From Microbacterium oleivorans (GTDB lineage Bacteria > Actinomycetota > Actinomycetes > Actinomycetales > Microbacteriaceae): DNA of 64,000 nucleotides. A program made the translations under genes and the position numbers. The stretch spans positions 2,852,001-2,916,000 of the forward strand of contig NZ_CP058316.1 of assembly GCF_013389665.1 (NCBI RefSeq), in the 5' to 3' direction. Shown here one piece after another: positions 36,806 to 44,896 of the stretch (its first letter is position 1; every line of letters starts with the position of its first letter). The notes under the pieces were generated by a model. That model searched no databases and was not told the DNA's origin. It saw only the letters and a list, made by a program, of their open reading frames with translations.

Positions 36806-36835
36806 TTGCCCGGGGGCGTCCGGGCCCGCTACTGT
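36806..36835 (+). promoter_or_regulatory. Promoter of the arginine leader ORF
   Basis: TTGCCC (36806-36811) and TACTGT (36830-36835) are 18 bases apart. The -10 ends 6 bases before the ATG at 36842, the same spacing as at other leaderless genes here, so transcription should start at that ATG. Confidence 0.5.
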
Positions 36836-36841
36836 CGCCCC

Positions 36842-36913
36842 ATGTCTTCGGCTCTGCAGCGCACCGTCACGGTGTTCCGCGCGCGCCGACGTCTGGGCGA
36901 CCGCCGACGTTAG
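36842..36913 (+). CDS. Arg-rich leader peptide upstream of argC (candidate attenuator)
   Basis: A 23-codon ORF, ATG to TAG, too short for ordinary gene finding. Eight of 23 codons are Arg, and six of them cluster in the last eleven residues, RARRRLGDRRR. It starts immediately after a promoter with leaderless spacing and ends 104 bases before argC, the first gene of arginine synthesis. This is the design of a leader peptide that senses charged tRNA-Arg. After the stop, nested stems can form: GGCGAC (36913-36918) with GTCGCC (36955-36960), enclosing ACGCTC (36924-36929) with GAGCGT (36944-36949). The same GTCGCC could instead pair with GGCGAC at codons 19-20. A caution: bases 36884-36918 form an imperfect tandem repeat, which alone could produce the Arg run. 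Confidence 0.45.
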   Translation: MSSALQRTVTVFRARRRLGDRRR

Positions 36914-36972
36914 GCGACCCCGTACGCTCCCGCCCACGCGGTCGAGCGTGTGGAGTCGCCGCCGCCGGTCCC

Positions 36973-36991
36973 CGTCACCGATGAGGTGACG
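36973..36991 (+). promoter_or_regulatory. Hairpin before argC
   Basis: CGTCACC (36973-36979) and GGTGACG (36985-36991) form a 7-bp stem with a GATGA loop, 26 bases before the argC ATG. It could act as the terminator or anti-ribosome-site stem of the proposed attenuator. There is no U-tract. Confidence 0.45.
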
Positions 36992-37017
36992 TCATCCCAG
37001 ACAATAAGGTGGAAGCC

Positions 37018-38076
37018 ATGCCCCTCTCCGTCGCCGTCTCCGGCGCTTCCGGCTACGCGGGAGGCGAGATCCTGCGCCTGCTCGCCGCCCACCCCGAGGT
37101 CGAGATCCGCACGGTCACCGCGCACTCCAACGCCGGTCAGCCGCTCATCGACCACCAACCGCACCTGCGGTCGCTGCGGCACCTGACCCTGCAACCCTCG
37201 ACGCCCGAGGTGCTCACCGGACACGACATCGTCTTCCTGGCGCTGCCGCACGGTCAGTCCGGAGCCTTCACCGACGCGCTCACGGGCACCTCGCTCGTGA
37301 TCGACGCCGGCGCCGATCACCGGCTCACCTCCGCCGACGACTGGGCGGCCTTCTACGGCGGCGCCTTCCACGATCCGTGGGCCTACGGCGTCCCCGAGCT
37401 GCCCGTCGCCGGAGGTTCCGCCGGCACCAAGCAGCGCGACCGGCTCGTCGGTGCCTCGCGCATCGCGGCACCGGGCTGCAACGCCTCGACCGTCGCGCTC
37501 AGCCTCGCCCCCGGGGTCGCCGCCGGCGTGATCGACCCGGGCGACATCGTGAGCGTGCTCGCCGTCGGCCCGTCCGGCGCGGGCAAGAGCCTCAAGACCA
37601 CCCTGCTCGCGGCCGAGATCCTCGGCTCCGCCAACGCCTACGGGGTCGGCGGCACGCACCGGCACATCCCCGAGATTCGGCAGGCGTTGCGCGAGGCCGG
37701 TGCGGTGGGCGAGATCCGCATCTCGTTCACGCCCGTGCTCGTGCCGATGTCGCGCGGCATCCTCGCCACCTCGACCGCACCGATCACCGAGGGTGTCACC
37801 GACGCGCAGATCCGCGACGCGTGGGAGAGCGCGTACGCCGGCGAGGCGTTCGTGCAGCTGCTGCCCGAGGGGACCTTCCCGCGCACCGCCGACGTCGTGG
37901 GCGCCAACACCGCGCTGATGGGCCTCGCGATCGACCGCGCAGCCGGTCGTGTCGTTGTGGTCACCGCGGTCGACAACCTCGCCAAGGGCACCGCCGGTGC
38001 CGCCATCCAGTCGATGAACATCGCCCTGGGGCTCCCCGAGACCCTGGGCCTGAGCGTGAACGGAGTCGCCCCGTGA
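37018..38076 (+). CDS. argC: N-acetyl-gamma-glutamyl-phosphate reductase
   Basis: A 352-residue NADPH-dependent reductase, third step of arginine synthesis. Nucleotide motif [13 protein letters not shown] (residues 8-20), catalytic Cys154 in [15 protein letters not shown] at 37005-37012 can be read as a ribosome site or as a -10 (TAAGGT, 7 bases before ATG), so the gene may be translated from the longer leader transcript, from its own leaderless one, or both. The next gene overlaps by 4 bases. Confidence 0.96.

Positions 38077-42317: not shown

Positions 42318-44896
<2,579 letters not shown>

Follow-up and report, generated by a model that had tools for sequence, protein, structure and literature searches.

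The window, the 64,000-nt stretch of Microbacterium oleivorans DNA analyzed here, contains an arginine biosynthesis cluster that is preceded by a short leader. In order, it holds divergent genes, a promoter, a 23-codon open reading frame (ORF), a structured stretch, argC, argJ, argB, argD, argF, a further ORF and argH. We take the name argC and the order argC-J-B-D-F-H from the original prediction made on this sequence and from gene order; argC, presumably encoding N-acetyl-gamma-glutamyl-phosphate reductase (37018 to 38076, + strand, the first gene after the leader), is also identified by its Pfam semialdehyde dehydrogenase domains. The closest named argC genes are those of Microbacterium, with a best segment of 89 percent identity to M. 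arborescens. Between argF and argH, the ORF at 42318 to 43469 resembles by eye a multi-pass membrane protein, and argG lies outside the arg cluster, about 1 Mb away (G000 C1:1881914).

The leader and its signals are on the + strand as well. A -35-like hexamer, TTGCCC (36806 to 36811), is followed after 18 nt by the -10 hexamer TACTGT (36830 to 36835), a TAnnnT box with a spacing shared by relatives, and after another 6 nt by the ATG at 36842 of the ORF MSSALQRTVTVFRARRRLGDRRR (36842 to 36913), which has arginine at 8 of its 23 codons and ends with the stop codon TAG at 36911 to 36913. The transcript start is predicted at, or adjoining, the A of this ATG. The 5' arm of a stem (region 2, 36913 to 36925) has the final base of the stop codon as its first base and faces a 3' arm at 36948 to 36960 (region 3); GGCGAC at 36913 to 36918 can pair with GTCGCC at 36955 to 36960, and an inner helix is also present. 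A 7-bp hairpin (36973 to 36991, with 36973-36979 pairing with 36985-36991) and the Shine-Dalgarno sequence (SD) UAAGG of argC (37005 to 37009) complete the region. The stretch from 36836 to 37030 folds better than dinucleotide shuffles of it (z = -2.89; 1 of 200 shuffles was equally good), and no Rfam family, the T-box included, scored above its gathering score between 36400 and 37200 (best, 17.5 bits versus 60). The original prediction had described the promoter, the Arg-rich ORF, the stems and the hairpin and had read them as a ribosome-mediated attenuator of arginine synthesis. Each of these elements is present where it was placed, the ORF with its 8 Arg codons among them, and the observation is confirmed.

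The same prediction had proposed an alignment of the regions upstream of argC in relatives as a check. We sampled 120 genomes of the family Microbacteriaceae, including that of the window, found argC in 113 and examined the upstream regions of all 113 loci. The best short upstream ORF (12 to 45 amino acids) had at least 5 Arg within 10 residues at 51 of the 113 loci, compared with 13 of 113 when the antisense strand was read and 9.5 on average after dinucleotide shuffling; at least 6 Arg within 10 residues occurred at 27 loci versus 6 and a mean of 2.35, respectively. A rule demanding an SD plus four or more Arg within 10 residues selected 57 of the 113 loci, and after changes by eye (L018, L032 and L106 removed; L033, L039, L081 and L092 added) the set of leader-bearing loci came to 58 of 113. 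These loci are spread over 42 of 81 genera, and presence or absence agrees in 31 of the 32 genera sampled twice. At 49 of the 113 loci the element is absent.

From 54 of the 58 leader loci (L067, L068, L079 and L090 were excluded because of long spacers) we built an alignment, A1, and a covariance model, which matched 79 of 80 named loci found via argC alone at an E value of 0.001 or better; 75 of these 80 are titled Microbacterium, and some may share a species with the family genomes. The one miss, L210, has a sequence that begins 52 nt before argC. Scores near the edge were those of L032 (E = 0.0027), which had been removed, and of L067 (0.005) and L068 (0.001), both of which were kept. Within its own genome the leader element of the window is the sole clear match (1e-13; next, 0.17), and 28 outgroup argC loci gave no match better than 0.014. 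The ORF, the Arg run, the promoter spacing and the stop-adjacent stem are thus kept among relatives (58 of 113 family loci, 79 of 80 named loci), and, judged by these comparisons of sequence, the leader ORF is one copy of a conserved element. Its conservation also establishes a short upstream ORF rich in codons for the product of the operon, as in ribosome-mediated attenuators of the trp, his and ilv type. By eye, the non-Arg residues of the leader peptides differ widely between genera. The leader of L027 is divergent: its ORF is longer and has another Arg-rich stretch, and the loop joining the two arms is rich in T.

One codon stands out within the Arg run. The second codon before the stop is CGA in the window (36905 to 36907, + strand), and this position encodes Arg in all 58 family leader loci and is CGA in 57 of them, with CGA accounting for 4 of the 131 Arg codons in the arg operon of the window. 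Among the 12 codons before the stop position, a mean of 5.6 and a minimum of 3 are CGN (58 leader loci). The position of CGA at a fixed distance from the hairpin gives one rare codon a testable role.

The CGA codon also served as an anchor for the reading frame. We scanned every ATG or GTG located 20 to 130 nt before it with a TAnnnT box 6 to 7 nt upstream. In the family, such a boxed start exists at 57 of the 58 loci. All 57 starts share the frame of the Arg run, and none lies in the other two frames; the 58 family loci had been preselected for an Arg-rich ORF. In the named set, which was not preselected, boxed starts are in frame at 78 of 78 loci, again with none in the other frames (L210, with no upstream sequence, and L196, with a 3' arm off the pattern, were left out of the 80; L219, among the 78 counted, was anchored on the wrong arm). 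ATG or GTG codons regardless of a box are also enriched in the frame of the Arg run, less strictly (131 of 217 in the family, 195 of 283 in the named set). The leaderless arrangement predicted in the window, with the -10 box 6 to 7 nt before the start, hence extends to 57 of 58 family and 78 of 78 named loci as a promoter predicted from sequence, and the leader looks, from this spacing, to be translated as a peptide from a leaderless transcript. The run of cysteine codons that marks the leaderless ORFs of mycobacteria is absent from it; arginine takes its place.

The start of argC itself comes in two kinds. Across the family, an Arg-rich ORF and an argC SD occur together at 47 loci, the SD alone at 19, the ORF alone at 4 and neither at 43 (Fisher P = 1e-11; the table used a wrong start for L092). 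An argC gene with no Arg-rich ORF upstream often has its own TAnnnT box 6 to 7 nt before the start. At L022, L025, L029, L043, L089 and others, argC directly follows a TAGNNT box and has no leader, and the genome lacks ArgR. The SD bases of the window can also be read as TAAGGT, and such a box could supply argC with a second promoter, bypassing the leader. In 16 of the 58 leader loci the SD stretch is not TAnnnT, and all 16 keep AAGG or GAGG, which suggests that the SD is the selected feature; the possible second promoter would apply to the other 42. In most leader loci the SD lies about 25 to 35 nt beyond region 3. This bears on the idea that the ORF merely brings ribosomes to argC, by coupling or re-initiation, and senses no arginine. 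Six loci that have the end of pheT in place of the ORF, described below, would fit such a role, but argC has an SD of its own at that distance and the Arg run and CGA are retained while the remainder of the peptide drifts; we regard this explanation as improbable.

Bacteria usually regulate arginine synthesis through ArgR, and the original prediction had called for a search for argR and had noted no ARG-box. Neither PF01316 nor PF02863 has a match in the 3.35-Mb single-contig genome of the window, and PF01316 is found in 0 of the 120 family genomes, that genome included. Across the order Actinomycetales, PF01316 occurs in 224 of 248 genomes; of 20 listed among the 24 genomes without it, 18 belong to the family of the window (4 of these are also in the 120-genome set) and two to other families. 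The genomes of the 49 family loci without a leader likewise have no ArgR. ARG-box-like sites (at least 11 of 14 matches) were found within 80 nt of argC at 0 of 113 family loci and within 230 nt at 1 of 113, versus 21 of 28 outgroup loci near the argC start, the pattern having been derived from the outgroup loci themselves and then scored on both sets. The outgroup consisted of 28 argC loci from 28 ArgR-bearing genomes, one argC gene being in pieces. Of the outcomes that would have refuted the original prediction, those within reach of sequence comparison did not occur. One could still argue for ordinary control by ArgR and an ARG-box, with the ORF a chance product of high G+C, since chance Arg-rich short ORFs do arise in shuffled sequence; with no ArgR in the family sample, no ARG-box-like site close to argC, an excess of Arg-rich ORFs over the antisense strand and a conserved frame and promoter, we give this explanation almost no weight. 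A family whose sampled genomes lack ArgR, many members of which carry a conserved cis element before argC, allows the loss of a repressor and the gain of a ribosome-read sensor to be studied side by side.

The stem next to the stop codon is the structural part of the element. RNAalifold returned it as the only consensus structure, with a covariation term of just -0.06. Its outer four pairs are nearly invariant and, because they hardly vary, are uninformative on covariation. At stem positions 4 to 9, the 57 distinct family loci form 270 native pairs, compared with 236 (standard deviation, 5) when arms are exchanged between loci, and 0 of 5,000 shuffles reached as high, in a control that still contains relatedness; position 4 is unpaired in 19 of the 57. 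The named set, in which L154, L216, L219 and L220 had no match to the 3' arm and merging of duplicates left 51 distinct arm pairs, gave no covariation signal for the stem. By eye, L216 (Microbacterium indicum) and L220 (Microbacterium sp. G2-8) have both arms changed together, GGCGGG with CCCGCC.

The placement of the stem relative to the stop codon is conserved. In 35 of the 58 family leader loci, the final base of the stop codon is also the first base of the 5' arm GGCGAC; in the remaining 23 the ORF continues past that point and the stop falls between the arms, 15 to 24 nt later (at an offset of 16 nt in 19 of the 23). A stop on region 2 or between regions 2 and 3 is hence seen in 58 of 58 loci, a count favored by the choice of ORFs that end at least 40 nt before argC. 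Of the 78 named loci, which were not so chosen, 67 have the stop on the arm and 8 have it between the arms (75 of 78), with 3 undecided. The stem is therefore placed such that the position of a ribosome would decide its formation, as expected of an attenuator, and the stop-adjacent stem of the original prediction holds up in relatives, with covarying inner pairs. The 7-bp hairpin fared less well: it is present at its site, but its conservation was seen only among close relatives. By eye it is kept in the four close Microbacterium relatives L144 to L147, of which L144 is Microbacterium arborescens DSM 20754, with one A-T pair replaced by G-C on both sides, and is absent from the three other Microbacterium loci inspected (L148, L149 and L152).

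We propose that the leader is probably a cis-acting, ribosome-read attenuator of the arginine operon, and the core reading of the original prediction is supported to that extent. RNA polymerase would start at the leader ATG and, as the promoter spacing implies, translation of the ORF would begin at the very 5' end of the transcript. Under a shortage of charged tRNA-Arg, a ribosome would halt in the Arg run, about 5 to 9 codons before the stop, and leave region 2 free to pair with region 3, so that the stem forms and the operon goes on being expressed. With ample arginine, the ribosome would pass CGA and either reach a stop on region 2 (35 of 58 loci) or translate through region 2 (23 of 58); the stem would be kept open, region 3 would stay single-stranded and operon expression would be cut down. 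The CGA codon may slow the ribosome just where region 2 is covered. The ORF with its frame, promoter spacing and Arg run, the CGA, the stem, the position of the stop and the lack of ArgR come from comparing sequences. Translation, arginine sensing and the stem as the ON state are what we infer from this arrangement: a ribosome at the stop covers the 5' arm and one in the Arg run leaves it free, so that the stem is expected at low arginine and, in an operon for arginine synthesis, is expected to be the ON state.

A different kind of sensing would have the nascent peptide bind free arginine and arrest the ribosome, like the fungal arginine attenuator peptide, with charged tRNA not being sensed. 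The constant position of one Arg in 58 of 58 loci would be in keeping with such an arrest. The arrest domain of a nascent peptide would, however, keep residues other than Arg, and these vary widely by eye between genera; in addition, the stop lies at region 2 in some loci and 15 to 24 nt later in others, which leaves no conserved distance between an arrest site and the stop. We consider peptide arrest quite improbable and retain sensing by ribosome position on the Arg codons.

How the state of the stem would be passed on to argC is less clear-cut. The original prediction had the GGCGAC after the stop compete with a second GGCGAC in codons 19 and 20 for region 3, and this switch was not borne out: a second copy exists in only 4 of the 58 leader loci. 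Complementary runs of at least 6 between the codons and region 3 occur at 21 of 58 loci (rates of 0.31 with codon shuffles and 0.40 with mismatched loci), and between the codons and region 2 at 26 of 58 (0.40 with codon shuffles), which is hardly any excess of complementarity to either arm. A conserved, mutually exclusive second hairpin was thus not found in these loci; a competing hairpin may take a locus-specific form. No run of four T residues lies between region 3 and the SD in any of the 58 leader loci, so there is no intrinsic terminator of the usual kind, with a U run.

Sequestration of the SD was considered and found no support. When a ribosome footprint was imposed in folding, over either the Arg run or the stop, no consistent effect emerged; with the ribosome at the stop, opening of the argC start site became dearer in 25 of the 58 loci and cheaper in 20 (mean, +0.47 kcal/mol). 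The stem had a probability of 0.58 without a ribosome versus 0.62 with one on the Arg run, and its loss in the stop state follows from the footprint imposed in folding. A possible fourth arm, in which early argC codons would pair with region 3, was not convincing either (mean of 0.197 for native versus 0.115 for swapped codons; native higher in 19 of 58 loci, lower in 9). The stretch before the SD is C-rich and G-poor, with C exceeding G in 58 of 58 leader loci; since 11 of 12 SD-led argG loci are alike in this respect, C-richness is no evidence for Rho, and a Rho site was not assigned from base composition.

For the output step we lean, at a little short of an even chance, toward premature transcription termination, possibly Rho-dependent. 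Our main reason is that neither start-site occlusion nor an intrinsic terminator was found, and a lesser one is the title of a 2023 study by D'Halluin, according to which premature termination in M. tuberculosis is reportedly linked to Rho and translated uORFs. Alternatively, the leader could act post-transcriptionally, with the position of the ribosome altering argC translation or mRNA stability as in speF. The lack of a terminator and the SD-led argC of leader-bearing loci would suit this mode, as would the control of speF, which according to excerpts of its description runs partly via RNase G and start-site access (PMC6386406). Against it, the energy for opening the argC start site shows no consistent shift with ribosome position and the pairing of region 3 with argC codons does not convince, and we think it unlikely, though far from negligible.

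The covariance model also revealed a connection to pheT. At six loci from three genera (L026, L048, L056, L076, L078 and L082; L078 and L082 are identical over 150 nt), the element lies inside the 3' end of pheT, with Pfam confirmation of the PheT identity in L026 alone. These loci yielded no separate Arg-rich ORF, and yet the model matches them with E values of 1.4e-7 to 1.7e-12. Here CGA and the 5' arm are the last pheT codons (such as in RFGATLRD), and all six share a stop offset of 16 nt within the element with 19 of the 23 late-stop leaders, a group with peptide ends like RRLSATPRR. At the aligned position, pheT has CGA in 6 of 6 fused loci, in 0 of 29 loci without the element and in 6 of 29 loci with a separate leader. 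We infer that the pheT end and the leader element share descent, in either direction. A more far-reaching scenario, which we hold as a speculation with the balance somewhat against it, is that the family lost ArgR, that in about half of the sampled genera arginine synthesis came under a leaderless leader peptide whose 3' end descended from the end of pheT and that in three genera pheT itself doubles as the arginine leader. If true, a tRNA-synthetase gene would serve as an arginine leader at six loci. A search before argG in 30 genomes found either no leaderless -10 box at the best short ORF or no ORF at 30 of 30 loci. Eight model matches at argG loci, with E values up to 0.1, were taken as chance, the best (0.00077) lying about 1 kb before argG in L230.

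In the open-access literature, no leader peptide for a bacterial arginine-synthesis operon was among the matches listed, and a 2005 survey of actinobacteria, in the portion available, describes no conserved RNA structure before arginine operons (PMC1262725). Several known systems share parts of the arrangement. In classical attenuators, such as the one proposed for ilvB1 of M. tuberculosis (excerpted in PMC13236596), product codons in a leader ORF and a ribosome position that sets the RNA fold resemble the argC leader, whereas their intrinsic terminator and mutually exclusive antiterminator have no counterpart found here. The fungal arginine attenuator peptide is likewise an upstream ORF that regulates an arginine-synthesis gene, but it is eukaryotic and its nascent peptide senses arginine, as stated in the available part of PMC11550727. 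The leader peptide rbfL of Staphylococcus aureus also senses arginine limitation by rare Arg codons; according to excerpts (PMC13009471) it differs in repressing, upon limitation, a biofilm regulator by covering its start site rather than acting on arginine synthesis.

Another case is that of the mycobacterial polycysteine short ORFs of Canestrari et al. 2020, as described in excerpts of PMC9094748 and PMC13236596. They are leaderless, are found in actinobacteria and place a run of the product's codons before the genes for its biosynthesis, as at argC, but they use cysteine, not arginine, and the same excerpts describe no conserved stem adjacent to the stop. The 2005 prediction of such ORFs, as far as the excerpted text goes, reported that the cysteine runs lie close to the stop and that a conserved terminator hairpin is missing (PMC1262725). 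A parallel in mechanism is orf34 of Salmonella speF (PMC6386406). It encodes two consecutive Arg codons (12 and 13) among 34, in a peptide that by eye is unrelated to the argC leader, has a Shine-Dalgarno sequence and precedes a gene for ornithine decarboxylase, not arginine synthesis, in gamma-proteobacteria. Yet both leaders combine Arg codons with a hairpin downstream of and adjacent to the stop. At speF, ribosomes pausing at the Arg codons allow this hairpin and ribosomes at the stop prevent it (PMC6386406, in part), and low arginine gives expression, to which we liken the ON state proposed here. The arrangement of ribosome and stem at argC is thus the one reported for speF in that account, which provides a precedent for our model.
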